DNA from: an uncultured Bacteroidales bacterium
GTDB taxonomy: Bacteria > Bacteroidota > Bacteroidia > Bacteroidales > UBA932
Length of the DNA stretch: 54,916 bases
Assembly (NCBI GenBank): GCA_946405435.1
Contig: CAMJHF010000017.1
Location: 1 to 54,916 of the forward strand
Direction: 5' to 3'
Part shown: piece by piece, positions 24,301-53,640 of the stretch
Position numbering within the stretch: the stretch's first letter is position 1
Layout: each line of letters starts with the position of its first letter
Translations under genes and position numbers: made by a program
Notes under the pieces: generated by a model
The model's input: only the letters and a program-made list of their open reading frames with translations
Told to the model about the DNA's origin: nothing
Database searches by the model: none

Positions 24301-25626
24301 ATGAAAACCAAGAAGATCCTCGGAATAGCAGGAGCTGTTCTGGCCGCTGCCCTGGCAGGCGGATGCATCTACATTAACTCCCTCACGCCCATCATTACCG
24401 GCTATGCCGCCAAGAACCTCGCATCTGCGATATTCGTGTCCGGACGCAGCCAGGCCGACGTGGAGGCGCTGGACCTCAACTTCTCGTTCATAAAATTCAA
24501 CCGCAACAAGGTGGATTACGAAAACAAGACGGTCACCAGCCGCTTCCTCTGGGCCCGTTCCACCGCCGCATACAGGGAGGGCTACGGAGTCACGCTGCTG
24601 CGGGGCAAAGACACGCAGGCGTTTCTGGAGCAGCAGTATCCCCTGCCGGCTGATTCTGCACGCACGGACTATCTCCCGGACGGAGACAGCGCCCTGCAGG
24701 CCCGCCTGGAGCCTATAGCGAAGGCGCTCGTCGACGACAGGACCTACAACGGCCATCCTTTCGCCATGGTGGTGCTGCACAAGGGCGCCGTGGTGGCGGA
24801 ACGCTACGACAAGGGCATCTCGGCAAGCACCCCGCTGCTTAGCTGGAGCATGGCAAAAAGCTTCACCAACGCCGTTGCCGGCATCATGGCTTCCGATGGC
24901 CTAATCGACATAAACGCTCCCCTGGGGCTGCCGGAGTGGCAGGCAGACGGCCGCAAGGACATCACGCTCAACCACCTGATGCAGATGCAGAGCGGCCTTG
25001 AGTGGAACGAGGACTACGGCAACCGTTCGGACGTGAACCTCATGCTGCACCGCGAGACCGACATGGGCCTGTACGCCCAGTCCAAGCCTCTCGTGCACGA
25101 GCCCGGCACATTCTGGTATTATTCCAGCGGCAGCACCAACATAGTCATGCGCTACCTTCGCAGCAAGTTCCAGTCCGACAGCGAGTTCCTTGCATACATG
25201 CGCGAGCGTCTCTTCGCTCCGCTGGCCATTTCGAATCCCCGCTTCGAACCCGACATGAGCGGAACGCCGGTTGGATCGTCCTACCTGTACGTCACCGCCC
25301 GGGACTTCGCCCGGTTCGGACAGCTCTATCTGGACGATGGATGCGTGGGAGAGAGGCGCATACTTCCGGAAGGATGGGTGGACTACACTTCCGCGCCCGC
25401 AGCGGCCAGCGAGGGCAGATACGGCGCCTTCTTCTGGCTCAACCGCTGCCACGTATGCCCCGATGTGCCCGAGGACATGTATTCCTGCAACGGGCACGAC
25501 GGCCAGCAGATATACATCATCCCATCGAAGGAACTCGTAGTGGTGATTCTGGGCTATTCACCCAAGCCTGACAGGGTAATAGATTTCAACGGCGTGCTGC
25601 GCGACATTATCGCCCAGCTTCCTTGA
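24301..25626 (+). CDS. serine hydrolase of the class C beta-lactamase / PBP4*-like family
   Basis: A 441-aa protein with an N-terminal hydrophobic segment and GGC (Cys 22), probably a lipoprotein or membrane-anchored. The SxxK motif is SWSMAKSF (nucleophile Ser and Lys, around residue 182), the YxS/YxN equivalent is YYSSGSTN near residue 277, and HDG in CNGHDGQQ near residue 400 stands for KTG. Such enzymes include D-aminopeptidases, esterases and peptide amidases; true beta-lactam hydrolysis is unlikely. Its 3' end overlaps the convergent C45 gene by 20 nt. The wall-degradation genes next door make a role on wall peptides conceivable. Confidence 0.87.
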   Translation: MKTKKILGIAGAVLAAALAGGCIYINSLTPIITGYAAKNLASAIFVSGRSQADVEALDLNFSFIKFNRNKVDYENKTVTSRFLWARSTAAYREGYGVTLLRGKDTQAFLEQQYPLPADSARTDYLPDGDSALQARLEPIAKALVDDRTYNGHPFAMVVLHKGAVVAERYDKGISASTPLLSWSMAKSFTNAVAGIMASDGLIDINAPLGLPEWQADGRKDITLNHLMQMQSGLEWNEDYGNRSDVNLMLHRETDMGLYAQSKPLVHEPGTFWYYSSGSTNIVMRYLRSKFQSDSEFLAYMRERLFAPLAISNPRFEPDMSGTPVGSSYLYVTARDFARFGQLYLDDGCVGERRILPEGWVDYTSAPAAASEGRYGAFFWLNRCHVCPDVPEDMYSCNGHDGQQIYIIPSKELVVVILGYSPKPDRVIDFNGVLRDIIAQLP

Positions 25627-26734
25627 GACGGCCGGCCATACCTTTCCCGAAGCCTGCAAAACGCCGGTCGGCGCAGGCGTTGTAGCGACGGACGCCCTCC
25701 GGAGTAAGGCCGCGGCGCATCAGGCGGCGTGCGGCGTGAAACTCGCGCCTCTGAGCCCTGCGCACGGCCTTTTCGATGCGCCTCAACCGCTTCACATCCA
25801 CCATTTTGGGATGGTCGGGATGAGAGTGCACGCTGGCGCTCAGCTCCACCGACAGCACATTGGCATCGCCCTTAAGGCACTCGGGGATGTCCTCACCTGC
25901 CGCCACCCATACCGCCACAGGATAGGCGCATGGAGTGTAGCCGGTGGCGCACCACATCATGCCTGAGCCTGCATCGGCGCCCGGCGCCACGCCTTCGATC
26001 ACTATCGATGCGGTGGTGGTGGGGCGGGGAATGTAGTCGTGCTCGAGCATCCATCCGCTGCGGCGGCCCCGGAGCGAATCGGCCCCGTGCTGCAGGTGAC
26101 GCCGGCCCGCCTCGAAGAAGAATTCGGGCGTAAAACGGCTCCTGCCGTCGGTCAGACAGCCCATGGTGGCGTAGCGCTCCTGCCCGCGCCCGCGGCCCTC
26201 GTCGCCCGTGAGCGAGTAGTTGGTGCGGTAAAGGATGCCGCCCGGCGGCACGTCGAAGCGCACGAACGACGTATCGGAGACCTCAAAGTAGGCCGCCCCG
26301 CCCTGCGCGTCGATCACCCCGAAGTTGGAGCTCTGCGGACGCGGGCGCGAAGGGTCGCGCAGCAGCGCCTCGAAGTCCTCCAGCGTGCGGCAGCCGGCCA
26401 GGGCGCGGGCCATCAGAGGGCCGGCCTTGGTGCGCTGCACGACCTCGTCGGAGCCGAGGTTGTACGACAGGTTGTTCATGATGCCGAAGCCCGCCTCGTT
26501 GATGCCGGCGTATGCCCTTGTGTGCAGGGAATCCTTGGTCGGGAACAGCGCCGTATAGGCAAACTTGCCGCCCTTTACGTGCACTATGATGTTGTACGGG
26601 TCTGGGGCGTCACGCTGCTTCCACAGCATGGGACGCCCGTCGGCGGACGCCCCCGCACTCACCACGGCGGTGGTGCAGGCCAGCGCCGGTGCGCCGAGCA
26701 GCAGAGCCGCAAGTATAATCCACAGCCGCCTCAT
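25607..26734 (-). CDS. secreted C45-type Ntn hydrolase (acyl-CoA:6-APA acyltransferase-like)
   Basis: A 375-aa protein with a signal peptide ending PALA, after which the mature chain begins with Cys 20 in CTTAVVSAG. An N-terminal Cys nucleophile exposed by signal-peptide cleavage is the arrangement of choloylglycine-hydrolase/C45 Ntn enzymes. Further signatures are DGRPMLWKQRD, AGINEAGFGIMNN and SSNFGVID. These enzymes cleave amide bonds of N-acyl amino acids, bile salts or penicillins; this one's substrate is unknown. The C-terminal 70 residues are Arg-rich. Start chosen at 26734, overlapping the MFS gene by 4 nt (ATGA). Probable last gene of the long right-hand operon. Confidence 0.82.
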   Translation of the reverse strand: MRRLWIILAALLLGAPALACTTAVVSAGASADGRPMLWKQRDAPDPYNIIVHVKGGKFAYTALFPTKDSLHTRAYAGINEAGFGIMNNLSYNLGSDEVVQRTKAGPLMARALAGCRTLEDFEALLRDPSRPRPQSSNFGVIDAQGGAAYFEVSDTSFVRFDVPPGGILYRTNYSLTGDEGRGRGQERYATMGCLTDGRSRFTPEFFFEAGRRHLQHGADSLRGRRSGWMLEHDYIPRPTTTASIVIEGVAPGADAGSGMMWCATGYTPCAYPVAVWVAAGEDIPECLKGDANVLSVELSASVHSHPDHPKMVDVKRLRRIEKAVRRAQRREFHAARRLMRRGLTPEGVRRYNACADRRFAGFGKGMAGRLKEAGR

Positions 26735-27942
26735 TTGCGTATCTTGTAGCCGTAGTAGGCGTAGAACATTATGAGCAGGTAGAACGGCAGGCAGATCCAG
26801 TAGGCGTTCTGCATGCCCACCCAGTCTTTCATGGCTCCGAACAGCAGGGGGATGAGCGCGCCGCCGCCGATGGAGGCCACCAGCAGCGAGGAACCCTTCT
26901 TGGTGAACTGCCCCAGTTCGGTGATTGCAAGGGGCCAGATTGCGGGGTACATCAGCGAACAGGCGAAGCTCAAAAGTGCCACGCACCACACGCTCACCTG
27001 CGGCGGAGTGAGCACTATGAGCAGCGAATCAATCACGGCCACCCAGGTGCAGATGCGCAGGGCCTTGACCTGCGAAATCACCTTAGGAATGCAGATGATG
27101 CCCACAACATAGCCAACGGCCATGCCAATGCCGGGCCAGATAGTGTAGCTCTCGGGGTTGGGAAGCCCGAGCCCCTGGGCGTAGTCAAGCACAGTAAGCA
27201 GCGCCAGATTCTCCACGCCCACGTACACGAACAGCGCCAGCGCCCCAAGCACCAGGTGCGGGAACTGCCAGATGCTCGTCTTGCCGGCGGCGTACGGGCA
27301 GTCCTCGGGATTCTCCTCCCCTTCCGCCTTGATTTCCTCGAGCGGAGCGAAGATGGTGACGACTCCCAGCAGCACCACTACGGCGATGATGATAATCAGC
27401 GGCTTGTCCAGGTCCTGAAGGCCCACGGCCTCGATGGGCTTGCGCGTTACGGCGGCAATGAACACCGACGGCAGCGCCAGCGCCATTGAGTTGCAGATGC
27501 CCATTATGCTTATGCGGCGAGCGGCGCTGTCGATGGGGCCGAGTATGGTCACATAGGGATTGATGGCCGCCTGCAGCACTGTGTTGGCCGTACCGCTGAT
27601 GAAGCACGCCAGCAGGTACAGCGCAAAGCTCTCAAGACGCGCGGCCGGGATGAAGAGTCCGAAGGCCAGCGCGAACATGAAGAAACTCAGCGACATGGTG
27701 CGCTTGTAGCCGATCTTGGCTATTATGCTCGAGGCCGGGAAACTGAATACCAGGAACGCCAGGAAGGTGGCCGCTATGACAAGATAACTCTGTGCCGAGG
27801 TCAAGTGGAGGTTGTTCTCCAGGAACGGCACGAAATACCCGTTGATACCCGTGGCGAATCCCACGGTGAAAAACATCATCCCTATAAATGCCAGGGGAAC
27901 TATGTACTTGTTGTTAGCCATATTTGACATGATATTAATCAT
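26731..27942 (-). CDS. MFS sugar/amino-sugar permease (FucP/NagP-like)
   Basis: A 403-aa, 12-helix major facilitator of the fucose-permease group: VPLAFIGMMFFTVGFATGINGYFVP (helix 1), FPASSIIAKIGYKR (loop 2-3), and NTVLQAAINPYVTILGP. In Bacteroidota, close relatives include transporters for GlcNAc and MurNAc. Location with a BadF-type kinase, MurQ and GH20 enzymes points to import of an amino sugar from cell-wall glycans. The start at 27942 overlaps the serpin stop by 4 nt; in-frame ATGs at 27930 and 27921 are alternatives. Confidence 0.88.
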   Translation of the reverse strand: MINIMSNMANNKYIVPLAFIGMMFFTVGFATGINGYFVPFLENNLHLTSAQSYLVIAATFLAFLVFSFPASSIIAKIGYKRTMSLSFFMFALAFGLFIPAARLESFALYLLACFISGTANTVLQAAINPYVTILGPIDSAARRISIMGICNSMALALPSVFIAAVTRKPIEAVGLQDLDKPLIIIIAVVVLLGVVTIFAPLEEIKAEGEENPEDCPYAAGKTSIWQFPHLVLGALALFVYVGVENLALLTVLDYAQGLGLPNPESYTIWPGIGMAVGYVVGIICIPKVISQVKALRICTWVAVIDSLLIVLTPPQVSVWCVALLSFACSLMYPAIWPLAITELGQFTKKGSSLLVASIGGGALIPLLFGAMKDWVGMQNAYWICLPFYLLIMFYAYYGYKIRK

Positions 27943-29249
27943 TCTTTACCGGTAAACACTCCTTCAAACAAAATTACTCCTGATGTTTTTTCTACAATCA
28001 CAAAGGCAAAAGGATGGTCGGCCTTGAACACTGTAGGTTTACGTTCAATGCCACTATCACCTATCATCAAATCGGCCGTAACTGCGGCTGCTTCTGTCCC
28101 CCACTCTGTAACTTTAATACGCGATTTCTGTATAACTTCACTTAAATCGCAAGAGTATTGTTTATTGTTTTTCAGAATCATTCTGTCGAATCCGGCTGAA
28201 GAAAAAGCCTTTCCGACGCCCAAAGAAACAAGCGCCTGCTTTAGCTGGTAACGTTTTGATATCTCAAAAGATGGCAGGAAAACAACAACTTCGCGACTGA
28301 TTCTGGTTTCGTCTATTATTTTCTCCCATTCATCAGCTGAAAGACAATCAAATAGCGCTTGTATTCCAAGCCCATTTCTTCCATCAGGTAGAAGTACATA
28401 AAAAGCATATTTATTCCCTGCATAAGGTAGTTCCAAGACTTCATATCCAGATCTCCGGGAATAGTTAAGGTATGCATCACTGTACATGTAGTCCACATTG
28501 ATTGTGCCTCCATTATCGAGATAAAACGGAGAGTCTTTCAAGGCCAGTTCAGGCACAAATGCTAAAAATTTATTCCAAGGAGCCTTGAAATAAAGGGCAT
28601 TCATCAAGATTGCCAAAAGATCATTACCTATATCGCTTTTATATAAAAATGGATTGATTAATCCATTAGTATTTCGACTAGCCCATTCATTTATCCGGTC
28701 AAGAACAACCTCCGGATTTCTTAGACTAACATATTCAACAGGTGCATAATACACATTGTTCATTGTACTTTTAAAAGATGCATCAGCCTTGAACTTGTCG
28801 TTAATAAGTACAGCATCGGTGACTTTCAACTCTACGTTCGGATCCAGCGCCGGCAACTGGTTGAGCAGGATAGTCATGAAACTATTCATGGATTGTATAT
28901 CACCACACCCTATTGTCTCCGTAATTACCCGGGCAACTTCTTCGTCTGCTCCGTTTGCTGCCATAGCCAGTGCATATTGGAGACTAAGCGGAGAATAAAC
29001 AATGTTTTCTCCTTCGCTATTTTCGAAGATGGCCTTTAGACACCGAAAAGAAAAATCATTTCCATTTCGAACACATGCCACCTGATCTTCATTCAATGTT
29101 ACCCCCTGCAGCTTGGCAGAAGGACGCGGAGAGCTGATATCAATCGGACTATTATCTACCTGGACATCCACGTTTTTCTCTACACCACACTTAGTAGCCA
29201 ACACTGATATGAATAAAGTGCAGAAAACGGAGATAATATACTTAAACAT
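27939..29249 (-). CDS. serpin (serine protease inhibitor), AT-rich
   Basis: A 436-aa serpin with a signal peptide (MFKYIISVFCTLFISVLA). The core fold is recognised by NIVYSPLSLQYALAMAANGA, LINPFLYKSDIGNDLLAILMNALYFKAPW, and the C-terminal ADHPFAFVIVEKTSGVILFEG. The reactive-centre hinge EWGTEAAAVTAD is of the inhibitory type (small residues at P12-P9). Counting from the hinge, P1-P1' falls around GDSG, perhaps Asp-Ser, but loop length is uncertain. The gene is visibly more AT-rich than the flanking GC-rich genes, which suggests separate acquisition. It sits between the sugar kinase (24-nt gap) and the permease (4-nt overlap). It may protect surface proteins from host or prey proteases. Confidence 0.92.
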   Translation of the reverse strand: MFKYIISVFCTLFISVLATKCGVEKNVDVQVDNSPIDISSPRPSAKLQGVTLNEDQVACVRNGNDFSFRCLKAIFENSEGENIVYSPLSLQYALAMAANGADEEVARVITETIGCGDIQSMNSFMTILLNQLPALDPNVELKVTDAVLINDKFKADASFKSTMNNVYYAPVEYVSLRNPEVVLDRINEWASRNTNGLINPFLYKSDIGNDLLAILMNALYFKAPWNKFLAFVPELALKDSPFYLDNGGTINVDYMYSDAYLNYSRRSGYEVLELPYAGNKYAFYVLLPDGRNGLGIQALFDCLSADEWEKIIDETRISREVVVFLPSFEISKRYQLKQALVSLGVGKAFSSAGFDRMILKNNKQYSCDLSEVIQKSRIKVTEWGTEAAAVTADLMIGDSGIERKPTVFKADHPFAFVIVEKTSGVILFEGVFTGKE

Positions 29250-29273
29250 AATCGACTATTGTCTATATGCATC

Positions 29274-30122
29274 CTAATTGTTCAGATGATACTTGATAAG
29301 TCCTTCCATGGGGGCTTTGAGGATAGTGCCCATCTTCATTCCATATTCCTCAACGACGGGTTGGAGGAGGGGCTTGAAATAGTAGGCGACGGAGCCTACG
29401 GCGTTGAAGGTATATTTTTGATAATCAGGGTAATGAGTGACTATTAGCTTGAAGAACTGACGGAAGGCGTCGGTCACGAGGTCCGGGAAATACGGATCGA
29501 AGTCCAGATGTTCGTTGATGAACTTGGCGTACTGGGCGCAGAAGCGGTTGGGGAAAGGACGGGTGTAGATTATGTCCAGCAGCTCGTCGTTGTTGTGTCC
29601 GAGCTCCCGGCCCACCAGTTCGTACACCTTAGGAGGCATGTTGCGGCGTATGTAATCGGTGATCATCCTCTTGCCAAGGTTGCCTCCGGAGCCCTCGTCG
29701 CCAAGGATAAAGCCGCAGGAGTCCACGTTCAGACCCTCGTTGCAGCCGTCGTAAAGGCAGCTGTTGGCACCGGTGCCCAGAATGGCGGCAAAGCCCGGCT
29801 TGTCCTGCAGAAGCGCCCGGCAGGAGGCAAGGGTATCCATGGCTATGAACACCTTGCCAGCCTTGGTAAACACCTCGCGCAGGGTCTTTTCCATGAACGG
29901 ATACTGAAGTTCGGTAACTCCGGCTCCGTAGAAGTAAATCTCGCTCACAAGCGTCGGGTCCAAGCTTGCGGGAAGATTAGCCTTGATATCCTCGACAATC
30001 TGAGGTCCGGTTATGTAATTGGGGTTATACCCCTGGCTCGTAAAGCCTATTCGGGTGGCTCCGTCGCGGGAAACGCATCCCCACTCGGTCTTGGTGGCTC
30101 CGCTGTCTGCAATAAGTATCAT
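29274..30122 (-). CDS. BadF/BadG-type N-acetylhexosamine kinase (GlcNAc/MurNAc kinase-like)
   Basis: A 282-aa ASKHA-fold kinase: ADSGATKTEWG (phosphate-1 loop), YNPNYI, a FIAMDTLASCRALL segment with the catalytic Asp, AILGTGANS (phosphate-2 loop) and GFILGDEGSGGNLG. Bacteroidota members phosphorylate GlcNAc or MurNAc at C6 in the cytoplasm. With MurQ and the MFS permease in the same operon this matches the transporter-kinase-etherase set used for MurNAc salvage in Tannerella. 5 nt after the 750-aa protein gene. Confidence 0.9.
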   Translation of the reverse strand: MILIADSGATKTEWGCVSRDGATRIGFTSQGYNPNYITGPQIVEDIKANLPASLDPTLVSEIYFYGAGVTELQYPFMEKTLREVFTKAGKVFIAMDTLASCRALLQDKPGFAAILGTGANSCLYDGCNEGLNVDSCGFILGDEGSGGNLGKRMITDYIRRNMPPKVYELVGRELGHNNDELLDIIYTRPFPNRFCAQYAKFINEHLDFDPYFPDLVTDAFRQFFKLIVTHYPDYQKYTFNAVGSVAYYFKPLLQPVVEEYGMKMGTILKAPMEGLIKYHLNN

Positions 30123-30127
30123 AATAA

Positions 30128-32380
30128 TTAGTTATAAAGTCCATTAAGGTCCGGAATCTCCCCCAGCCCGTAGCGGAAGAGCACCACGCCTTCGGCCTTG
30201 GTGCCGACAAAGAGTTCACAGTCGCTGCGAATCTTGGATGCGCTCATGGGCACCGTACTGGCGCTGTCTGTATCTTCGTAGGTAGTAATACCTGCCCAGA
30301 CCTTGGCGGGAGAGCCCTTGGTGGCGAAGTGATTGGCCACATTCACTGCCCAAGTCTGCCCACCGCTGCGATAGCCACCTGTGCGGAAATAAATCATTGG
30401 TATGAGTATATCCATATACTGGCCCATCTGGGCGGGGTTCTGGCCATAATAATATTCGCTGTCGGGCTCGGGCATGAGGGCGGCCGAAAGTATAATATCG
30501 GAATTGACAGCCTTGGTGGCGGCGTTTATCTGCCTGCAAAACTCGGTCACGGCGCCCGTGGCAGTAATTTCAGCCGACGGATTGTGCTTGTATGCCGTTC
30601 CGCCGAAGCGGATGTAGTCCAGATGGATACCGTCGACTCCATAGCCTGCGTACCTCACCGCGCGCTCTATAACCTCGTCGAAGTATTCTTGCTTGTAGCG
30701 GTTGTTCTCATCGTCCACAGGATTTACCCAGCTGCCGTTGGAGTAGAAGCACTGCAGCCAGATATGAACTTTCATTCTCTGAGAATGCGCCGACTTTATA
30801 AAGGACTTGACAGATTCCGTACCGTGACTGGTAAAAGCCACCTCGTGCAGGATAATGTGCTTGATATCATTGCCGGCAAGAATATCCAGGTTGACAGTAT
30901 TCATGTACTGGGACCAAAGCCATATACCATTGTTGGACGCCGTATCCGAAGACTGCCTTGACTGGAAGAGTTCGCAGCGTATAACGGTATCGTCAGCCAG
31001 TCCCGACGCCTTGTCCAATCCGTTGTCAAGCAGATATTTGAATAAGAAGGCGTAGGTAATCAGCGCCCGCATTGAGCAGAAGCTGCCGGTGTAGGCGGTG
31101 ATGGGACTCCGGGGATAAGTGCACATGTTGGAAATGGACTGTCCGCTCTGGAAATTAAGGGCACGCATGGCCCAGTTGTCCAAAACATCCAGCGTTACAA
31201 TATGTGACACTCCGTCAGTTGTGCGGAAATACCCGCCGTTGCCCGGAGCCTCATTGTAGGGCATCGCGCCCCAGTAATAATTGTGCGTTCCGGGGACGGG
31301 CGTTTCGCTCATTCCTACGGCACCACCGGAGAGTGCGGCAATGGATCCCGGGCCATAATGCGTCCGGTCCAGGCCGTCGTAACCACGGACCAGCAGATAG
31401 CTGCGAAGCGCAGTTTCGAGCATGTCGGCAGTGTTGTAGGTCTTGTCCCCCACCGTAATCGTGGTGGTCGACGGAATGTAATGCGCTCCTGGAACATTGA
31501 AATCGCCTCCGGCGTAATTCTCCCCTTTGACAAGGTCAATCGTGCCCGTAGTCTTGTCCCACACATCCAGTATCTTGATGTACTCCTTGGCAAACGCCTT
31601 GATGGTACCGTCGCCGTCGAAACTCTCTTCGGGAGAAGAATATATCTTGCCGGCGGCAAGAGTAATACCTGCAGTGCGTTTGGTCATGGTTACGCCGGAC
31701 CCATCGACAACCTTGACGGTGATGCCATGGGCATAGTTGCCCGGAGGCACGGCTATGTAAACACTGGACACCTCCGGCGACAGCGTCCTGCCCACAGCCA
31801 CGCGGACCGCCTTGTCGGCAGCGGCGGAAGAAGCCCCGGACAGCACTCCGGTTGAATAATCCACGCCGAAATTGCCGCAAACCTGCTCGCCGCCATTGCC
31901 GGAAAGCTCTACATAGTCAACCGGAGCCGAGCCGGCTCCGGGCGTCAGCCGGACCTTGACAACCGCAGCTACATGCTTGAACTTCAGGCTATTGCCAGAA
32001 GCCGTAAAGGCCACTGTAGGAAGAGCGTTCTGCCCAAATGAGGCATCGCTGCCGGCGGCCTGAACGGAGGGCAGACATATCGTGCCGTCGGACACCCAGA
32101 TGGAAGAAGGGTAAACCGCCTTCTTCTCATCCGGGAGCACGACGCCGAAGCTGAATTCCGCCGTGGAGGCAGGAGAACCTATGGACAGCGGAGAGGACGC
32201 CGAGCCATTGATACAGATAGCGTCCCCGTCCTGCCAGAAGACTTTCCTGCCGTCCGGCTGAAGCTCTGTCCTGGTGTTGTCAAAACCGGCAGTAACTACG
32301 GTACCGGGAGCGGTTTCCACGACCTTGGCACATCCGAATGCCAGGGCCAACGCAGCGGCAATGCAGTATATCCGTTTCAT
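30128..32380 (-). CDS. lipoprotein: fimbrillin-like domain + PMBR-like module + TIM-barrel putative glycoside hydrolase
   Basis: 750 aa. Residues 1-17 form a lipoprotein signal (AFGC). Residues of about 27-255 are a fimbrillin-like domain, closely similar to that of the next protein upstream. Residues of about 258-472 are a repeat module with TITVGDKTYNTADMLETAL (308-326), RSYLLVRG and ALITYAFLFKYLLDN (439-453), which I compare with pseudomurein-binding repeats. Residues of about 483-750 form a TIM-barrel like the putative glycoside hydrolase domain of methanogen surface proteins: GIHLDYIRFGGTAYKH (584-599), SAALMPEPD (632-640), YYYGQ (643-647), PMIY and VVLFRYGLGE. Asp 588 and Glu 638 are plausible catalytic acids. 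Start ATG 32380 overlaps the preceding stop (TGATG). Likely surface-exposed. Confidence 0.82.
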   Translation of the reverse strand: MKRIYCIAAALALAFGCAKVVETAPGTVVTAGFDNTRTELQPDGRKVFWQDGDAICINGSASSPLSIGSPASTAEFSFGVVLPDEKKAVYPSSIWVSDGTICLPSVQAAGSDASFGQNALPTVAFTASGNSLKFKHVAAVVKVRLTPGAGSAPVDYVELSGNGGEQVCGNFGVDYSTGVLSGASSAAADKAVRVAVGRTLSPEVSSVYIAVPPGNYAHGITVKVVDGSGVTMTKRTAGITLAAGKIYSSPEESFDGDGTIKAFAKEYIKILDVWDKTTGTIDLVKGENYAGGDFNVPGAHYIPSTTTITVGDKTYNTADMLETALRSYLLVRGYDGLDRTHYGPGSIAALSGGAVGMSETPVPGTHNYYWGAMPYNEAPGNGGYFRTTDGVSHIVTLDVLDNWAMRALNFQSGQSISNMCTYPRSPITAYTGSFCSMRALITYAFLFKYLLDNGLDKASGLADDTVIRCELFQSRQSSDTASNNGIWLWSQYMNTVNLDILAGNDIKHIILHEVAFTSHGTESVKSFIKSAHSQRMKVHIWLQCFYSNGSWVNPVDDENNRYKQEYFDEVIERAVRYAGYGVDGIHLDYIRFGGTAYKHNPSAEITATGAVTEFCRQINAATKAVNSDIILSAALMPEPDSEYYYGQNPAQMGQYMDILIPMIYFRTGGYRSGGQTWAVNVANHFATKGSPAKVWAGITTYEDTDSASTVPMSASKIRSDCELFVGTKAEGVVLFRYGLGEIPDLNGLYN

Positions 32381-34800: not shown

Positions 34801-34813
34801 AACCGCACTCGAT

Positions 34814-34951: not shown

Positions 34952-34961
34952 AAGGTTATAT

Positions 34962-35846: not shown

Positions 35847-35851
35847 GATCG

Positions 35852-36949: not shown

Positions 36950-36970
36950 AACTATGCAGTTTATTTGGGA

Positions 36971-41265: not shown

Positions 41266-41305
41266 AATGCAGAAATTTGGTTGTTAATAAAAGTTATATA
41301 TGTGT

Positions 41306-43479: not shown

Positions 43480-43480
43480 A

Positions 43481-45328: not shown

Positions 45329-47132
45329 AACTGCTGAAGAAACGTTTCTCGGTAACTTTACCGAGAGGCTTGCCGTCGCGGCCGAAGGCACGTGCCTTGA
45401 TGACCGCGTCCTTGTCCACCATGAACGGAGTGCCGTCATATTCCGGACTCTGCAGCGTAGGCTCCGAGCCGTCAAGGGTGTAATGCACGGTGCCGTCGGG
45501 ATAGTCCAGCTCGAGGTTCATGGGCTTGGGGAAAGGCAGGCGGCGGTCGTAGTCGAAGATAACCTCGTAGAACACGGGGCAATAGCCTATGTGCTTAGCC
45601 TCCAGACGCTTGAGGATCTTTGGCATGCGGGCGCGGAAACTCTCCCAGTCCTTGTTGGGACGGCTCGTCCATGCCACTTCGGAGGCTGCCACATTGCGCG
45701 GGAAGGCCATCCACTCCGCCTTGGCGCTGTCGGGGATGTACTCTGTCCACAGGCAGGTCTCATAACCTATGATGTACTTCTTGCTGAGGTCGGGGATGGA
45801 ATCGACCGCAGGATAGTAGTTGTAGACCTTCTTGAGGGGCATGAACACCTCCTGAGCCAGGTCGTCCGGCTGGTCGTCCTGGTGGTTGTCGAGGTAGCAC
45901 CAGCGGTTGGGGGTAAGGACCACGCGAATGCCGCGCCTGATGCCCCTGGCTGCAGGTGCATGGCCGCGGTAACTCATGGCGATAGGGTCGTCAAGGGCTC
46001 CGCCGTCCAGGATTTCGTCCCAGCCTATGCAGGTCTTGCCGTTGGCCTTGAGGAAGTCGCCGATGCGCTTCACGAAGAAGGTCTGGAGCTCTTCAACGTC
46101 CTTGAGCCCAAGCACTTTCATAAGGTCTTGGCAATATTGGCTCTCGCGGTACACGTCCTTGGGGGCCTCGTCGCCGCCGATGTGGTAAATCGGCGAAGGG
46201 AAGAGCTCGAACAGCTCGGTGAACACATCCTCCAAGAACTGAAAGGTGTAGGCCGTGGGGGCATAGAGGTTCTTCCAGATGCCCCAGCGGGTCTCTACCT
46301 CGTAATGGCGCTCCGGGAAGCAGCTGAGCTCGGGATAGGCGGCGATGGCGGCCGTGCTGTGGCCGGGGATTTCCACCTCCGGAATCACGGTTACGCAGCG
46401 CCTGCGGGCATATTCTACAATCTCACGTATGTCGTCCTTGGTGTAGAAGCCGCCATGGGGCTCGCCGTTGCCTATCCAGCTGTGGAAGGCAGTTTCCTTG
46501 CGCCAGGCGCCCACCGTAGTTAAGCGGGGATACTTGTCTATCTGGATACGCCAGCCCTGGTCCTCGGTGAGGTGCCAGTGGAACATGTTCTGCTTGTGCA
46601 TGGCCATGAGGTCGATGAACTTCATCACCTCCTCCTTGGGGAAAAAGTAGCGGCCGCAGTCGAAAAGGAAGCCCCTGTAGGCGAATTCCGGCTCGTCGTC
46701 GATTACGCAGCAGGGGGCGGTCCACTTGACCTTCTTTACCTGCTTGTCCGAGTAAATCTCGGCCGGGAAAAGCTGCAGGAGCGTCTGCAGGCCGTAGAAG
46801 GCACCGTTGACCTCGGATGCCTCGATCAGCACTTCCGCCGGCCTTACGGTGAGCCGGTAGGCCTCTTTGCCGAAGCCGTCGGCCTTGCGCAGGATGATGC
46901 GCGGACCGCTGCCCTTGAGGGCGAAGCCGGTGGAGGCGGACACCTGGGTGCGGAAGTCGGCGGCAATCTCGTCGAAGGACGCATCCTCAACGTTCAGGGC
47001 CGTGGTTTTTCCGAGGGTAAATACGCTCTGGGCAGGCACGAGGCTTTTGGGAGTGGGTACTATATCATATACCGGCGGATTTAGCACCGGCACAACGGTA
47101 AGGAGGACTGCAAGCAGGACGGCAGTAATCAT
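45318..47132 (-). CDS. GH20 beta-N-acetylhexosaminidase (2)
   Basis: 604 aa with a cleavable signal (MITAVLLAVLLTVVPVL) rather than a lipobox, so probably periplasmic where copy 1 may be surface- or membrane-bound. Same architecture: GH20b domain, catalytic barrel with FHWHLTEDQGWRIQIDKYP, IPEVEIPGHS and the acid pair HIGGDEAPK, and a C-terminal chitobiase-like sandwich (HYTLDGSEPTLQSPEY). The start at 47132 overlaps the ceramidase-like gene's stop by 4 nt. The two GH20 proteins are paralogues and may split the work by location or linkage. Confidence 0.94.
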   Translation of the reverse strand: MITAVLLAVLLTVVPVLNPPVYDIVPTPKSLVPAQSVFTLGKTTALNVEDASFDEIAADFRTQVSASTGFALKGSGPRIILRKADGFGKEAYRLTVRPAEVLIEASEVNGAFYGLQTLLQLFPAEIYSDKQVKKVKWTAPCCVIDDEPEFAYRGFLFDCGRYFFPKEEVMKFIDLMAMHKQNMFHWHLTEDQGWRIQIDKYPRLTTVGAWRKETAFHSWIGNGEPHGGFYTKDDIREIVEYARRRCVTVIPEVEIPGHSTAAIAAYPELSCFPERHYEVETRWGIWKNLYAPTAYTFQFLEDVFTELFELFPSPIYHIGGDEAPKDVYRESQYCQDLMKVLGLKDVEELQTFFVKRIGDFLKANGKTCIGWDEILDGGALDDPIAMSYRGHAPAARGIRRGIRVVLTPNRWCYLDNHQDDQPDDLAQEVFMPLKKVYNYYPAVDSIPDLSKKYIIGYETCLWTEYIPDSAKAEWMAFPRNVAASEVAWTSRPNKDWESFRARMPKILKRLEAKHIGYCPVFYEVIFDYDRRLPFPKPMNLELDYPDGTVHYTLDGSEPTLQSPEYDGTPFMVDKDAVIKARAFGRDGKPLGKVTEKRFFSSYGK

Positions 47133-48493
47133 AGCGCTTGTTGTATGGTTTTGTCTATGGCTTCGGCGAATGCCTCCGGCATGGTATCGGACAGAGGATA
47201 GGGAGCCTTTATGTAAATATGCATCTGGTCGATTTCGTATTCGTAGCCCTTGCGGTACTCGTAGGCATGGGCAGACGGGAGATAGGAATTCTGACCGTTT
47301 GTATAGCCGGCAAAGATAACTGTCTTGCCGGGGAAATGACTGCGGGCGCCCATCTGGTATTCGCAGAAAGGCTCGCCCTGGGTGAAGAAGAAAATGATTC
47401 CGTTGATGTTGACAGCGCCCATGGTGAAGTCCAGCGTGTTGTGCACTTTGCCCTCTGCCAGACGGCTCAGAATCAGGTTTTTCCAGCCTTCCACATCTTC
47501 TTTCCAGCTCCAGTTGACCGAGAGCTCGCCGCCCCACTTCTCAACAAGTTCGGCGGCATGGGCCTCGACGGCCTCGGGAGTGATCCGGGCGATGCGGAAC
47601 GGCAGGCCCACGGTGTCGTTCACCACTTTGAACTCGCCCGTGGGGCGCACCTTTTCGAACTGCACCTTGAGAAGAGAGTCTGCAAGGCTGCGGCCGCACT
47701 CTTCGGCATATTCCACCATCTTGGGGCCCTCGGCGGGGTCCATGTTGCCGGCGGCGCCGGTGAGCTGGAACACGTCACCTCCCCAGGCCTCACGCAGTAT
47801 CTTGCCGCATACGCCAGGGTAATCGGACGACACCAGAAGGCTCTTGTGTCCCATGCACACAGGGTGGCATGCCAGGTTGACTATGGACACTATGGGCGCG
47901 CCCTTGGTGTCCAGGAAGCGGACCACGTAGACGTCTCGGTCCACGGGACCTGTCTCCTTCTCGCAGCGGTTGCCGTTGATGCTGGTCTGCGCCTTGCCCA
48001 CCTCCATCTTGAAGGGACGGAAGGAGGCATCGTCGGTAATGGTCTTTACGGCATTGGCAACCAGCACCTTGTGCAGGCGCTCCTTGTGGGAGTAGTTGCT
48101 GCCGCCGGGTTCCGCCCGCCAGCCGCCGTTGCGCGGAGCCGAGTGGGTGTGGATGCAGTGCATGAAGATACGGTCGAGCGGAAGGCCGGACTGCTCTGAG
48201 ATTTCTTTACGCCACTCCAGGCTCAGCTCGGGCGAAATCTCCATGAGGTCGTTGGAAATGATGCACACCTTGTCCGCACCTTTGCCTACTACAAGGCAGT
48301 GGGTGTACAGGGGGAGGTGCAGTCCGGTGGAGAGGTCGTTGCGGGCGGCGAAGCCGGCCAGCATCGTGTGCTCGTCAGGCGTCGTGGAAATGTCGGCGGC
48401 GTTGTAATTCATGGTCAGGGCGTCCCCCCGGCATCCTGTGAGGATGCCCAGGAGGACGGCTGCCACGAATGCATAACGGAAGAATTTCATCAT
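47129..48493 (-). CDS. neutral/alkaline ceramidase-family lipoprotein
   Basis: 454 aa with lipobox LTGC. Matches the N-terminal catalytic domain of neutral/alkaline non-lysosomal ceramidases: CIHTHSAPRNGG (zinc-site His pair and substrate region, about 115), NLACHPVCMG (about 205) and QLTGAAGNMDP (about 245). Known members hydrolyse N-acyl-sphingosine, but Bacteroidota have many short homologues in sugar-utilisation loci with undefined amidase activity. Here a role in removing an N-acyl group, or in attacking lipids of the target cell, is open. ATG 48493 overlaps the SusD stop (TGATG). Confidence 0.82.
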   Translation of the reverse strand: MMKFFRYAFVAAVLLGILTGCRGDALTMNYNAADISTTPDEHTMLAGFAARNDLSTGLHLPLYTHCLVVGKGADKVCIISNDLMEISPELSLEWRKEISEQSGLPLDRIFMHCIHTHSAPRNGGWRAEPGGSNYSHKERLHKVLVANAVKTITDDASFRPFKMEVGKAQTSINGNRCEKETGPVDRDVYVVRFLDTKGAPIVSIVNLACHPVCMGHKSLLVSSDYPGVCGKILREAWGGDVFQLTGAAGNMDPAEGPKMVEYAEECGRSLADSLLKVQFEKVRPTGEFKVVNDTVGLPFRIARITPEAVEAHAAELVEKWGGELSVNWSWKEDVEGWKNLILSRLAEGKVHNTLDFTMGAVNINGIIFFFTQGEPFCEYQMGARSHFPGKTVIFAGYTNGQNSYLPSAHAYEYRKGYEYEIDQMHIYIKAPYPLSDTMPEAFAEAIDKTIQQAL

Positions 48494-50541
48494 CAATAGT
48501 TATATCCGGGATTCTGGATGATCTTATGCACCTGTCCGTTCTTGTCGTAGGTCTTGTCTATCTCGGTCTGGGGGATAGGCATAAGGTAGTTCGGGTAATC
48601 CTCGGGATTCTCGGTACCGGGCTTGTTGGTGCAGGTGATCTTGCCGGCCTCGGGGAGGTTGTTGCGGCTCGAGTTGGGGAACCACTTCTGGGTAGGGGAA
48701 ATGGTGAGGCAGGCCTCGCCGTAGTCGACCTCGTAGGTCTTGCCCTTCCAGACATAGTTGACAAGATAAGCCACGTTGTGACCGTTGTTGGAGGTGATGT
48801 AGGCCGCACTCTCGCCGGTATTGGTCCAGTAGTAGTTGCGGTCTTTGTTGACCATATTGGCGGGCTGCACGCAGCGGTACAGGGTGTCCTGCTTGCTGCC
48901 TTTCTGCAGCAGCATGGTGCGCATGCCGGCGAAGGGAACGTTCTCGTAGGTGGTCGCTATCTTAAGGCGCCTGGTGTCCAGGTAACGGAAAGACTCGAAG
49001 GCGAGCTCGATACGGCGCTCGTTCACGATTTCGTCCCAAAGGTTGTCGCCGCTGTCGGTAATCTCCGGCATCATGACGTCGGCACGGCTGCGTATCTTGT
49101 TGAGGCAGGCGCGCGCCTCATCCTCACGGTGGAGATGCCATGCAGCCTCTGCGAGGTTAAGATACATCTCGCCCATACGGAACCAGGGATACATCACGTT
49201 GCCGATGAGGGACTCGGAGATGTACTTGTCGGGCATGTACCACTTGGTGAGGCCGCTGCCGCCGGTGTTGGTAAGATGGATCTGGTCGCTGGCCTTCTTG
49301 GAGGTGACAGGCTCTGGTTTGCCCTTGTCGAAGTCAGCTATCTCGGTGTTCTCGTAAAGGAGGTAGAGCTGAAGCTGGGTTTCCTGATTCTTGCCTTCCT
49401 TGTCGAGCCACTTGTACATCTTGGTCGGGTAGATTATGCAGTGCTCGAAACGGGGATCACGGCCCTTGAAGGGGTGTAGGGGATCATATCCGGAGCCCTC
49501 TTCGAAGATCTTCTTGCCGTTCTTCATCTCGTAGTCGAGCCACATGGCCTGGGTTGGGTTGAAGCTCTCCCAGCCGCCGCCGCCGAAGTCCATCAGACTG
49601 TAGAGCAGCTGGGCCTTGTGGGGCTGGCCGCTGCTCTGCACGAAGTACTTGGCCCAGATGACCTCGGGCGAGTTGATGTCGCGCCAGAAGCCGTCGTAAG
49701 TGTCGTCGAGGGCATAGGCTCCGTCCACGTCGGCACGGTCGCAGATGGCCTTGGCGGCCTTATATGCATCTTCCCACTTGCTCTCCGAGTATGCGCCGCG
49801 GAATACTCCTCCCGTGGGGAAGTTGGGGTCGTTGAACAAAGGGGAGGCAACGATGAGGGTCAGGCGGCAGCGGAGTGCCAGCACGCAGTCCTTGTGCACG
49901 CGGCCCTGGGCGGTGCCGTTCTTGTCGGGGAGAAGCTCATAGGCTTTGTCGAGGTCGCCGTTGATGAATTCGACGCACTTGTCGAAATCGGAACGGACCT
50001 CGGCAAAATCGGAGCCAAGATCATCATGAGGCTTGTCCACCAGCACCACGCCTCCGTAGCGCTGGATAAGGTTGGTATAGGCCCACGCACGCAGGAAGTA
50101 GGACTCGCCGACAAGGCGGTTCTTGACGTCCTCGCTGAGGGCCGAACCCTTCTGTTCTACGTAATTCAGGAAGTAATTGATGCGGTAGATGTACTCGTAG
50201 GCACGGTTCCAGATGTTCAGGAACGTGGTACGGGTATTATGAGCCGGGCCGCCCTCGTCCTGGGGAATGATGGAACTGGGGGTCATGGAGCCGTCGGCTA
50301 TGTAGCGGGTGGAGGTGCCTCCGTAACGGAAGAAGCCCTCGTCGGAAATGCATCCGGTGTTGCCCTCGGTGAAGGGGTCGGGCAGAACGGTGTAGATGGC
50401 GTTGATGTAGCTCTCGGCCAGGGCGTCGCTGTTGAACACTGCCTCCTCGGACATCTTGTCAAGGGGCTTCTTGTCCAGGAATCCGTCGTTGCAGGCGGTG
50501 AGGACGGCGACAAATGCAATTATATATAGTATCTTTTTCAT
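48493..50541 (-). CDS. SusD/RagB-family outer-membrane nutrient-binding lipoprotein
   Basis: 682 aa, lipobox LTAC (Cys 17) followed by NDGFLDKKPLDKMSEEAVF, the standard start of SusD proteins. Contains the ESYFLRAWAYTNLIQRYGGVVLV TPR-type helix motif and FRMGEMYLNLAEAAW near the C-terminal half. Forms the lid of the SusC transporter and binds the oligomer to be imported. 12 nt after SusC. Confidence 0.95.
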   Translation of the reverse strand: MKKILYIIAFVAVLTACNDGFLDKKPLDKMSEEAVFNSDALAESYINAIYTVLPDPFTEGNTGCISDEGFFRYGGTSTRYIADGSMTPSSIIPQDEGGPAHNTRTTFLNIWNRAYEYIYRINYFLNYVEQKGSALSEDVKNRLVGESYFLRAWAYTNLIQRYGGVVLVDKPHDDLGSDFAEVRSDFDKCVEFINGDLDKAYELLPDKNGTAQGRVHKDCVLALRCRLTLIVASPLFNDPNFPTGGVFRGAYSESKWEDAYKAAKAICDRADVDGAYALDDTYDGFWRDINSPEVIWAKYFVQSSGQPHKAQLLYSLMDFGGGGWESFNPTQAMWLDYEMKNGKKIFEEGSGYDPLHPFKGRDPRFEHCIIYPTKMYKWLDKEGKNQETQLQLYLLYENTEIADFDKGKPEPVTSKKASDQIHLTNTGGSGLTKWYMPDKYISESLIGNVMYPWFRMGEMYLNLAEAAWHLHREDEARACLNKIRSRADVMMPEITDSGDNLWDEIVNERRIELAFESFRYLDTRRLKIATTYENVPFAGMRTMLLQKGSKQDTLYRCVQPANMVNKDRNYYWTNTGESAAYITSNNGHNVAYLVNYVWKGKTYEVDYGEACLTISPTQKWFPNSSRNNLPEAGKITCTNKPGTENPEDYPNYLMPIPQTEIDKTYDKNGQVHKIIQNPGYNY

Positions 50542-50553
50542 ATCGGGCGCAGA

Positions 50554-53500
50554 TTAGAATGTTACTTTAACACCGAAATTGAAAATCTTGACCTGAGGAT
50601 AGGTCTGGTAGCCTTCGTCGCTGGTTTCCGGGTCGATGGTCTTGAGCTCGGAGAAGGTGAGAAGGTTGTAGCCTGCGGCATAGAAGCGGGTGCTCTTGAT
50701 GCCGACCTGGTGGCCGAACACGCGGCCGGGCAGGGTGTAGCCTATTTCGAGGTTCTTAAGACGCAGGAAGGCTGCGTTGCGATAGTAGAAGGACGTACGG
50801 TACACGCCGCCGTTGCCGATGTTGGAGGCGATACGGGGGTAGTTGGTATCGGGATTGTCCAGATTCCAGGCGTTGACTGCCACGTCGGCCTCGATGTTGC
50901 CGGACACGGGGTCGGTCAGAGGAGCGTAGTAGTAACGCGCCCTTGCCTGGCCCTGCAGGAGGATGGACAGGTCGAAGTTCTTCCACTGCAGCTCGCTGTT
51001 GAGACCGAACACGATCTGGGGAACTGCGGTGAGATCCATCCTCATACGGTCCTGGGAGTCGATGATGCCGTTTTTGTCGAGGTCCTTGAAGTAGAAGTCG
51101 CCGAGGCCGGCGCCAGCCATCTGCAGGTGATTCTGCAGGTCATCGTGGGTGCGGTTGATGCCCTCCACCTGATAGATGAGGGAGGCGCCCATGGGGTGGC
51201 CGGTGCGGTTCATGTACTGGTGCTTCTCGTCGTAGGGGGTTTCATCCATGTACTCGATGGTGTTCTTGGCGTACATGATGTTGCCGGCCACGCGGTAGCG
51301 GAGGTCGCCGCCCAGTGCCTTGTTCTCATGGGTGAGCTGAAGCTCGACACCCTTGTTGGAGACTATACCGATGTTCTCGTCGGGCAGGTTGCCGGTGAGA
51401 CCGGTAAAGTAAGGTATGGAGGCGTTGCGGGTGCAGAGGATGTTGCTGCGGCGGGTGTGGAAGTACTCGAGCTCCCATCCCAGCAGGCCGTGATGGATGT
51501 TACCGTCCAGACCGAGGTTCCAGGTGCGGGCCACCTCCCAGGTGATGTTGGGGTTGGGGACGCCGTCGGGCAGGATGTAGTTCACTTCCTTCTGGTCGTA
51601 GAGGGCGCGGTAGGAGCTGCTGGAGGTGTAGGCGTAGGTGGCGAGATACTGGAATGCGGCCACCTGGTCGTTACCCTGCTCGCCGTAGGAGGCGCGGAGC
51701 TTGAGGTTGGTGAGCCAGGGGATGTTGTCCTTGATGAAGGACTCCTCGGACAGACGCCAGCCCACGGACACGCCGGGGAATACGCCCCAGCGCTTGCCAA
51801 CGGGGAAGTTTTCGCTTCCGTCCCAGCGCACGAGGGCCTGGATCATGTACTTGCTCTTGTAGTCGTATCCGGCACGGGCGAAGAAGGAACGGCGGGCGGT
51901 TTCGGAGGCATATCCTCCGATCTTGTAGAAGGACTTGTCGGCGTTGCCGGCGAAGAACTGGTCAAGTATGTCGGAGTCGTACTTCTCGATGTTGGCGTTG
52001 AAGCGGTCGCGGCGGAAGCTGCTCTGCTCCATACCGGCAAGGGCGGTCACGTGGTGGTCGCCGAAGGTACGGTCGTAGTTGATGTTGGCGTTGATGGTCA
52101 GGGTGTGGTAGTTGTTCTGGCTCTCCGTGAGGGTAGGGGTGGTGAACACGCCGCTGTCCCTCTCGCGGTAGGTCTCCGTAATCTCGTCGTAGGAGTAGCA
52201 GGGCCAGTTCTTGGACCAGTTCTTATTGAAGTTGTTGTGCACGTCGTATGCCAGCACTGCATTGACGGACAGGCCTTTGGTGATGGCGTGCAGGTCGTAG
52301 TTGCCGCGGAAGGTGGTGTTGATGGTGTTGTAGGTGGTGCGGTCGTAACCGGTGAGGTCCTGCACCAGGGCGGCGGGGTTGGAGCCGCTGCGCAGGTAGC
52401 CGTTGGGATAGTACGGGGCGCTGGAAGCGTAGCGGCGGGTGGTGATATAGAAGATACCGTAGTTGTCCGAAGGGTAGGCCGAGTAGTTCTTGTGCTGCTG
52501 ACGGACGTTCAGGTCGATACCGAGTTTGAAGTCGTCGGTGACGTTGATGTCGATGTTGGAGCGCACGTTGTACTGGTTGTAGTTGGTGGCGGACTTGACA
52601 TAGATACCATCCTGGTACTGGCCGTTGAACTGCACGAAGTAGCTAACCTTGCCGGCACCGCCCTGCAGGCTCACGCCGTATTTGTGCTGCGAGGAGAAGG
52701 GCTTGATGATGGCCTTGAACCAGTCGGTGTTGGGGTAGTTGATGGGGTCGTCCTGGTCGATGTAGTGCTGGATCTGCTCCTGGGTGTAGATGGGAGAGGA
52801 TCCGGTAATGGCGCGGGCGGCGTTGTAGGCCGTGGCGAACTGCACCGCGTCGGCCATCTTGAGCAGGCGGGTGGGCGACTGCATACCGTAGTCGTAGGTG
52901 AAGGTCACGGTGGGGGTACCGTCTGTGCGGCCGCGCTTGGTGGTGACGAGGATGACGCCGTTGGCGGAACGGGCTCCGTAGATGGCTGCGGAGGCGTCCT
53001 TCAGCACGTTGATGCTCTCGATTTCCTCACCGGTGAGGCGGGAGAACTCATCGCCTCGGCCGGGGACGCCGTCGATGATGATGAGCGGAGAGTTGTCTCC
53101 AAGGGTGGAACGGCCTCGGATGTACATGACGGCGTCGTCACGTCCGGGCTCGCCGGAACGGTTGTTGACGATGACGCCGGACATACGGCCTGCAAGTCCC
53201 TGGGAGAGGTTGACCGAGGAGTTCTTGACCAGTTCGGCACCGGAAGTCGAGGTGACGGATCCGGTGAGGGTGATCTTGGACTGGGTGCCGTAGCCGATTG
53301 CCACAGCCTCCTCGAGGAGCATCTGGTCCTCTTTGAGGATGAAGTCCACGGTGGTCTGGCCGCTGGCGAGCTTGACGGATTGATCCTCATAGCCCATGAG
53401 GCTGGCGGTAAGGGTGGCGCCGGAGGCGACATTGTTCAGGGAATAGCTTCCCATAGGATCGGTCATGGCACCGTTCTGGGTGCCGTTCACAATGACCATG

Positions 53501-53640
53501 GCTCCCACCAGCGGTTCACCGTTGGCGTCCTTGACCGTTCCCTGAACGCGGACACGACTCTGAGCCGTGGCGTCAAAAGTGGTTAAGGCCGTGATAGTGA
53601 AGGCCGAAAGGAGCATCAAAAAGAATTTGAATTGCTTCAT
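50554..53640 (-). CDS. SusC/RagA-family TonB-linked outer-membrane transporter
   Basis: 1,028 aa. Signal peptide 1-26; carboxypeptidase-D-like domain about 31-110 (VQGTVKDANGEPLVGAMVIV); plug with LLEEAVAIGYGTQSKITLTGSV (about 112-135), the IRGRSTLGDNSPLIIIDGVPG tract and INVLKDASAAIYGARSANGVILVTTKRG; a 22-strand barrel ending in Phe (VKIFNFGVKVTF). Imports oligomers with energy from TonB-ExbBD. First gene of the 28-kb operon, so the substrate class is that of the operon, proposed to be wall fragments. Confidence 0.96.
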   Translation of the reverse strand: MKQFKFFLMLLSAFTITALTTFDATAQSRVRVQGTVKDANGEPLVGAMVIVNGTQNGAMTDPMGSYSLNNVASGATLTASLMGYEDQSVKLASGQTTVDFILKEDQMLLEEAVAIGYGTQSKITLTGSVTSTSGAELVKNSSVNLSQGLAGRMSGVIVNNRSGEPGRDDAVMYIRGRSTLGDNSPLIIIDGVPGRGDEFSRLTGEEIESINVLKDASAAIYGARSANGVILVTTKRGRTDGTPTVTFTYDYGMQSPTRLLKMADAVQFATAYNAARAITGSSPIYTQEQIQHYIDQDDPINYPNTDWFKAIIKPFSSQHKYGVSLQGGAGKVSYFVQFNGQYQDGIYVKSATNYNQYNVRSNIDINVTDDFKLGIDLNVRQQHKNYSAYPSDNYGIFYITTRRYASSAPYYPNGYLRSGSNPAALVQDLTGYDRTTYNTINTTFRGNYDLHAITKGLSVNAVLAYDVHNNFNKNWSKNWPCYSYDEITETYRERDSGVFTTPTLTESQNNYHTLTINANINYDRTFGDHHVTALAGMEQSSFRRDRFNANIEKYDSDILDQFFAGNADKSFYKIGGYASETARRSFFARAGYDYKSKYMIQALVRWDGSENFPVGKRWGVFPGVSVGWRLSEESFIKDNIPWLTNLKLRASYGEQGNDQVAAFQYLATYAYTSSSSYRALYDQKEVNYILPDGVPNPNITWEVARTWNLGLDGNIHHGLLGWELEYFHTRRSNILCTRNASIPYFTGLTGNLPDENIGIVSNKGVELQLTHENKALGGDLRYRVAGNIMYAKNTIEYMDETPYDEKHQYMNRTGHPMGASLIYQVEGINRTHDDLQNHLQMAGAGLGDFYFKDLDKNGIIDSQDRMRMDLTAVPQIVFGLNSELQWKNFDLSILLQGQARARYYYAPLTDPVSGNIEADVAVNAWNLDNPDTNYPRIASNIGNGGVYRTSFYYRNAAFLRLKNLEIGYTLPGRVFGHQVGIKSTRFYAAGYNLLTFSELKTIDPETSDEGYQTYPQVKIFNFGVKVTF

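Follow-up and report, generated by a model that had tools for sequence, protein, structure and literature searches.

How a bacterium could make a living from the wall of an archaeon is the question raised by an operon of an uncultured Bacteroidales bacterium (lineage UBA932; assembly GCA_946405435.1, 2.56 Mb and 85% complete). The window, that is, the whole stretch of DNA that was analyzed, comprises the 54,916 nucleotides of contig CAMJHF010000017.1, positions 1 to 54,916, and the operon occupies positions 25607-53640 on the minus strand. Its uptake genes stand beside relatives of three modules of methanogen wall proteins, which makes it likely that the operon serves in binding and cutting the cell walls of methanogens and in feeding on them.

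The Methanobacteriales are the main methanogens of the rumen. Their wall is formed by pseudomurein, described in the cited passages as inert to lysozyme and to the known bacterial wall hydrolases (PMC2989375, PMC6189367). The pseudomurein-cutting enzymes found in the literature (PeiW, PeiP and PeiR) originate from methanogen viruses. No description of a bacterial use of pseudomurein was found among the titles and abstract openings listed from the open-access PMC literature, subscription papers and preprints being outside the scope of the search. Seven bacterial proteins with pseudomurein-binding repeats (PMBR) were already reported in the cited part of PMC2989375 and, therefore, bacterial PMBR as such are not new. 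The Sus-type locus is also known as a kind; what is new is the substrate predicted for it and the probable source of its modules.

Three modules shared with methanogen wall proteins

The central component is a 365-aa lipoprotein (35852-36949), a predicted pseudomurein endoisopeptidase, which contains a PMBR-like pair (residues 39-215, 36305-36835) followed by a catalytic domain of the transglutaminase fold (TG; residues 215-365, 35855-36307). The sole above-chance Pfam domain in this protein is Transglut_core (PF01841, E 3e-18). The residues Cys288, His322 and Asp337 are invariant in an alignment of 40 sequences, hand-picked from 120 listed relatives.

The TG family is present in 78 of 80 Methanobacteriales genomes (E<=1e-15). 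It was found in 13 of the 299 genomes of the window's bacterial family (E<=1e-20), distributed by 2 of 25 genera, and, among 151 genomes of a clostridial order, in the starting genome only. The 50,697 phage records searched gave four matches, which correspond to two methanogen viruses, Drs3 and vir080, with two accessions each. The catalytic domain shows 33-41% identity to the methanogen PMBR-TG proteins over 117-154 aa, and one of them aligns at 28% over 331 aa, PMBR part included. These proteins match the TG profile with E values down to 3e-40 (small database). The protein of Methanobacterium virus Drs3 also contains a PMBR pair and a TG, with 40% identity in the catalytic domain, and differs in being viral and in lacking a TIM barrel. 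Its gene, annotated as a pseudomurein-binding repeat protein, is placed two genes after that of a tail protein. The same TG is fused to a peptidoglycan-binding domain (PF01471) in an IMG/VR virus contig (L001:9677-10435).

The methanogen PMBR-TG proteins (adhesin-like group III in the cited part of PMC11532034), together with the methanogen proteins L064 and L068, share with the operon the PMBR pair followed by a Cys-His-Asp TG domain, the same TIM-barrel family and a TG C-terminus that is mostly LPF or SF. They differ in being archaeal and single-chain, some with Ig-like stalks, whereas the operon encodes separate bacterial lipoproteins in a SusCD setting.

In a 58-row tree, which included 27 of 46 Bacteroidales rows after exclusion of duplicate loci, the 27 Bacteroidales TG form one clade (100/100), which a branch of 0.83 changes per column separates from the rows of archaeal, viral and clostridial origin. 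Eight generic Bacteroidales transglutaminases are on branches of 3.0-3.3. An order-wide TG search gave 11 of 393 genomes at E<=1e-10, with a full-length match in the window's genome only; the ten others match part of the model, and the eight of these that were fetched are remote in the tree. The deep order of the tree does not settle the direction of transfer, which was consequently taken from the distribution. This distribution suggests that the modules probably came from methanogens or methanogen viruses.

The order of the domains, a PMBR-like pair and then a C-terminal Cys-His-Asp transglutaminase-fold domain, is that of the Pei enzymes. PeiP and PeiW (peptidase family C71; phages psiM2 and psiM100) contain N-terminal PMBR and a C-terminal Cys-His-Asp domain of the transglutaminase fold, according to the cited part of PMC2989375. 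They have four PMBR, compared with one pair in the operon TG, and are not reached by the sequence profile of the latter. A Foldseek search of the PDB with the predicted TG structure retrieved PeiP as best match (8z4f, E 1.8e-9) and PeiW (8jx4) at rank 8. The methanogen and virus TG proteins match the C71 family (PF12386) weakly. Direct membership of the operon protein in C71 was rejected, since the Pfam and profile tests were negative and the agreement is limited to fold and architecture.

The second module type is the PMBR. A PF09373 label was already attached to 29 of the 120 listed TG relatives, and a PMBR match at E<=0.1 was found in 31 of the 40 hand-picked ones (21 already labelled; best E 1.5e-10). 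The methanogen PMBR-pair profile was built from 19 rows, of which 17 come from methanogen genomes, one from Drs3 and one is the clostridial protein L050; L090 and L099, without the pair, were dropped. In profile-profile comparison, it matched the TG N-terminus with a probability of 97.1% (E 7e-11) and residues 31-198 of the 1415-aa lipoprotein (40672-41175) with 99.0% (E 2e-18). Two unrelated profiles yielded 0.1-0.4% and reversed ones 0.5-0.7%, and when the 1415-aa pair was compared with the TG domain, as a further unrelated profile, the probability was 34% for a stretch of 14 columns located at the shared boundary. The PMBR of PeiW and PeiP reach 96% against the methanogen profile, and 28% and 14% against the bacterial pairs. 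The Pfam PMBR search gave no match in the window's genome and, therefore, Pfam alone would miss this link. Matches above the Pfam cut-off occur in 79 of 80 Methanobacteriales genomes versus none of the 393 in the order to which the window belongs (2 weak matches), a contrast that holds for clear PMBR only, as the window's own genome is silent in the same search.

The third module type is a TIM barrel of the DUF4015 family (PF13200, cut-off 27 bits). It forms the 294-aa lipoprotein (34962-35846; 32.9 bits) and the C-terminal portions of two longer proteins, the 750-aa protein (30128-32380; 32.4 bits) and a 448-aa lipoprotein with a lamin-tail-like domain (41306-42652), which at 19.9 bits is below the cut-off. 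The barrel of the latter is DUF4015/DUF4434-like; the three Pfam matches of this 448-aa protein are all sub-cut-off, and the A2 profile matches it at E 3e-82. DUF4015 is found at E<=0.001 in 71 of 80 Methanobacteriales genomes, in 61 of them above the cut-off, and in 1 of 14 controls. The 294-aa protein has 41% identity over 277 aa to the TIM barrel of the methanogen protein L066, compared with 37% to its own operon neighbour. In L066 the barrel is accompanied by three or more PMBR stretches, and in L064 and L068 a single chain contains TIM barrel, PMBR and TG; these three methanogen proteins are probably wall-remodelling enzymes. Identity, family match and structure comparison together point to the 294-aa protein as a putative wall-glycan hydrolase.

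With a methanogen PMBR-TIM protein as query, a search of the PDB by sequence retrieved nothing at E<=1. The predicted TIM structure was best matched by Foldseek to Cwp19, with the PgaB and SleL structures also near. Cwp19 is a clostridial wall protein of GHL10/DUF4015-like fold that functions as a murein hydrolase; the operon barrel differs from it, at 18% identity. A viral origin of the TIM barrel was set aside, as the phage-record search gave one weak match (27%, E 1e-3), in an unannotated human-faeces record.

The original prediction, made from the letters of the window, had described three TIM-barrel proteins, one transglutaminase-like Cys-His-Asp protein and three large lipoproteins with repeat modules, and had claimed that the three module types of methanogen and methanogen-phage proteins recur here on separate bacterial lipoproteins. 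This agrees with the results above, the large lipoproteins being those of 1415, 806 and 750 aa. Two of its parallels need correction. The TG matches the methanogen PMBR-TG-TIM proteins and the Drs3 protein instead of C71 proper, and the sole, weak phage match of the TIM domain, expected in methanogen-phage lysins, is not in a methanogen virus. Among the families named there for checking, DUF4015 was recovered directly (294- and 750-aa proteins) and C71 was not. PMBR, whose lack of any match had been named in advance as refuting the prediction, is absent from the Pfam results of the window proteins and was reached only through their relatives and by profile comparison.

Operon layout and conservation in relatives

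Translation and Pfam indicate 16 co-directional genes, with susC first and the gene of an AAT-type hydrolase last. The run starting with SusC/SusD had been correctly recognized in the original prediction, which counted 17 genes. The intergenic gaps (n=15) vary from -11 to 68 bp, with the sole exception of 161 bp between the genes of the 806- and 294-aa proteins. Lipoproteins were assigned by a lipobox found by script or, for the 750-aa protein, by eye.

The first gene encodes a SusC/RagA TonB-dependent outer-membrane transporter (1028 aa, 50554-53640; TIGR04056, 877.6 bits with a cut-off of 368) and the second a SusD/RagB surface glycan-binding lipoprotein (682 aa, 48493-50541; PF07980, E 5.5e-41). 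A 453-aa lipoprotein follows (47129-48490), which resembles neutral ceramidases by its Pfam match (PF04734, E 8.8e-10) and by a weak one in the PDB (E 3e-4). Then, there are two proteins of the GH20 beta-N-acetylhexosaminidase family, one of 604 aa, predicted to release N-acetylglucosamine (GlcNAc; 45318-47132; PF00728, E 8.8e-105), and a lipoprotein of 615 aa (43481-45328; PF00728, E 9.4e-120). As expected of a Sus-type locus, susC is beside susD and the two GH20 genes belong to the same run, with neighbouring gaps of 1, -11 and -4 bp. The operon is similar to other Bacteroidetes Sus-like loci in grouping a SusC/SusD pair and surface lipoproteins with exo-glycosidases, a kinase and a permease, and differs from them in its predicted substrate, an archaeal wall peptide-glycan.

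The gene of a divergent MurQ-like SIS protein (276 aa, 42649-43479) precedes those of the 448-aa protein and of the 1415-aa lipoprotein (37018-41265). According to Pfam and profile-profile comparison, the 1415-aa protein consists of the PMBR-like pair, a BACON domain, four repeat modules and a C-terminal module. After the 365- and 294-aa proteins come the 806-aa lipoprotein (32380-34800), formed by an N-terminal domain, a repeat module, a BACON domain and another repeat module, and the 750-aa protein, with a fimbrillin-like domain (sub-cut-off) and a repeat module before the TIM barrel. The last genes code for a BadF-type kinase of the GlcNAc/N-acetylmuramic acid (MurNAc) kinase group (282 aa, 29274-30122), a serpin (436 aa, 27939-29249; PF00079, E 3.2e-81), an MFS permease that is above the gluP subfamily cut-off and resembles NagP (403 aa, 26731-27942), and an AAT/C45-type Ntn hydrolase (375 aa, 25607-26734; PF03417, E 2e-4, and NF040521, E 3e-12, both sub-cut-off). 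The inventory first drawn up was right about the two GH20, the MurQ-like protein, the BadF kinase, the MFS permease and the Ntn hydrolase, and had omitted the serpin and the ceramidase-like lipoprotein.

As regards a dedicated regulator or sensor beside the operon, the two minus-strand open reading frames (ORF) of at least 100 aa upstream of susC, before the window end at 54916, have no Pfam family at E<=0.1. On the other side, a beta-lactamase-family gene (PF00144; 24301-25626, plus strand) separates the operon from a four-gene run on the minus strand (16778-24224), which by Pfam codes for a glutamate-symporter-family protein, an M20+C1 peptidase, an Na/Ala symporter and an S46 dipeptidyl peptidase. 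The left part of the window contains, on the plus strand, genes for an AAA_14/DUF4143 protein (2214-3557) and a PD-(D/E)XK-family transposase (5050-6018).

A scan of genome contigs for the TG retrieved 47 loci: 45 from Bacteroidales, one from Methanosphaera and one from a clostridium. The record titles of 14 of the 45 Bacteroidales loci name a ruminant or a ruminant gut site. One goat-omasum contig (JAFRSW010000022.1) has two TG copies, L015 and L030, about 17 kb apart. Synteny was evaluated in the 29 Bacteroidales loci having at least 9 kb upstream and at least 5 kb downstream of the TG, each ORF being assigned once, to its best window protein. A core set (TIM barrel of either type, repeat protein, MurQ, GH20 and BadF) is kept in 27 of the 29, which indicates that the locus is no chance cluster; in 16 of the 29 both TIM types are present as separate genes. 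Considered gene by gene, some TIM barrel, a repeat protein and GH20 are present in all 29 loci, BadF in 28, MurQ and MFS in 27, the lamin-tail type of barrel in 25, the stand-alone 294-aa type in 21 and AAT in 20. Every assigned ORF is on the strand of the TG. SusC was seen in 5 and SusD in 12 of the 45 Bacteroidales loci, most likely because the flanks reached 10 kb at most.

The genes beyond the operon were also followed. Downstream of AAT (29 loci had an AAT match), a glutamate-symporter-family gene is present in 21 of the 23 loci where the contig continues for at least 1.5 kb, and all 22 loci with at least 3.5 kb have a gene for an M20+C1 peptidase. The beta-lactamase-family gene had no match in the 48 related loci searched, and the serpin is not conserved, having a relative in one of 45 loci, on the flank. 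Within the window's bacterial family, the 13 TG-bearing genomes are all among the 15 of 299 that carry a TIM barrel of either type.

Proposed function and competing explanations

The operon is quite probably a polysaccharide-utilization locus for pseudomurein with a patchy distribution, as originally proposed; this reading is supported by the tracing of all three module types to Methanobacteriales proteins. From the genes, the homology of their modules, their linkage and their distribution we infer binding, cleavage, import and use. The PMBR-like pairs of the 365- and 1415-aa lipoproteins would fix the methanogen wall at the cell surface, perhaps assisted by the divergent modules found in the proteins of 806 and 750 aa. 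The Cys-His-Asp enzyme of 365 aa would hydrolyze the isopeptide cross-links of pseudomurein, whereas the DUF4015 TIM barrels would cut its glycan. Subsequently, oligomers would be taken up by SusCD. The GH20 enzymes would free GlcNAc, to be imported by the MFS permease and phosphorylated by the BadF kinase. The divergent MurQ-like enzyme may act on a further sugar phosphate, with one derived from talosaminuronic acid as a guess. The neighbouring glutamate and alanine symporters and the peptidases (16778-24224) likely use the released peptides.

Several observations weigh against pseudomurein as the substrate. PF09373 has no match at E<=10 in the 365-, 806-, 750- and 1415-aa proteins. The modules of about 220 residues in the 806-, 750- and 1415-aa proteins reach 17-18% against the methanogen PMBR profile, versus 92.5-95.6% against the bacterial PMBR-like pairs; they are probable divergent PMBR pairs, judged by these profile comparisons. 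PF12386 is absent from the 11 families matched by the 40 TG relatives at E<=0.1. In the modelled TG structure, VIA-align places a Cytophaga protease above PeiW and PeiP, with PeiP close-tied with other transglutaminase folds. Finally, the MurQ and BadF of the operon resemble murein salvage.

This last point leads to the alternative that survives best, although it is itself unlikely: the operon would feed on bacterial murein, with enzymes that cut peptidoglycan and with MurQ, BadF and the MFS permease for the recovery of MurNAc and GlcNAc. MurNAc salvage of the MurK/MurQ type occurs in Tannerella and, as here, combines a BadF kinase, a MurQ-family protein and a permease in one operon. The operon kinase is related to solved GlcNAc/MurNAc kinases, and the nearest structures to the TIM fold are those of Cwp19, PgaB and SleL. 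The MurQ-like protein is above the PRK05441 cut-off (283.9 bits versus 168) and below that of the TIGR00274 equivalog (235.9 versus 302). It has, however, GTGGKLGVLDVLEVPNTYG at the place of GTSGRLGVLDASECPPTFG in solved MurQ proteins, and the motifs GTGG[KR] and PNTYG, present in 33 of 33 aligned operon orthologs, stand where the solved MurQ proteins have GTSGR and PPTFG. The operon MurQ is thus a distinct variant. A second, canonical MurQ (GTSGR, PPTYG) adjoins a second BadF kinase on contig C27 of the same genome. Murein salvage is therefore provided for elsewhere in the genome, and the pair in the operon resembles a specialized copy. The TG branch also argues against a murein substrate, as nearly all Methanobacteriales have it and it is seldom found in the sampled groups of bacteria. 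Some kb from the canonical murQ, contig C27 contains repeated QMDPKRRK-like units in two overlapping ORF (L112:43-1160).

Still less probable is a mainly adhesive role, in which the proteins would hold the bacterium to live methanogens so that hydrogen can be transferred, and the TG would form bonds and not cut them. Such a role would fit the wall binding of PMBR modules (cited part of PMC2989375) and the crosslinking of which the transglutaminase fold is capable (cited part of PMC11915815). On the other hand, SusCD, the two GH20, the kinase and the permease, together with the peptidases and amino-acid symporters next to the operon, make up a catabolic set, and the TG relative of Drs3, two genes after a tail protein, occupies a lysin-like place. 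Just as slight a chance is given to a different target glycan (mucin, chitin, plant or host glycoprotein), the locus having taken in modules from archaea. GH20 and ceramidase-like genes are common in glycan loci, but three separate module families all indicate the same wall and the core genes are conserved together.

A probable clostridial version and the possible biological meaning

A second bacterial case was found in a goat-colon clostridium with a 1.7-Mb genome (G002), which has 27 PMBR matches at E<=0.001 and five TG matches. One of its proteins (L125) contains a dockerin, a TG and a sub-cut-off PMBR; two others (L121 and L122) contain a dockerin, a GHL10/DUF4015 TIM barrel and PMBR, above the cut-off in L121 and below it in L122. 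L048 and L050 belong to the same genome. By its domain composition, the set looks like a cellulosome-style version of the one in the Bacteroidales operon and, taking both together, the kit appears to have been put together twice in bacteria.

A wider and more tentative proposal, considered somewhat doubtful, is that gut Bacteroidales have adopted the wall-cutting kit of the methanogens themselves and apply it externally to lyse them alive and graze on them, that the clostridium has a dockerin-based second version of it, and that this guild limits rumen methanogens. If pseudomurein is the substrate, the operon would constitute a trophic link from archaea to bacteria and provide candidate genes for the breakdown of talosaminuronic acid. 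It would also offer mesophilic methanogen-lysing enzymes for methane control, as well as pseudomurein probes. The fate of the archaeal wall in guts would then become a question open to direct assays of lysis by the proteins.

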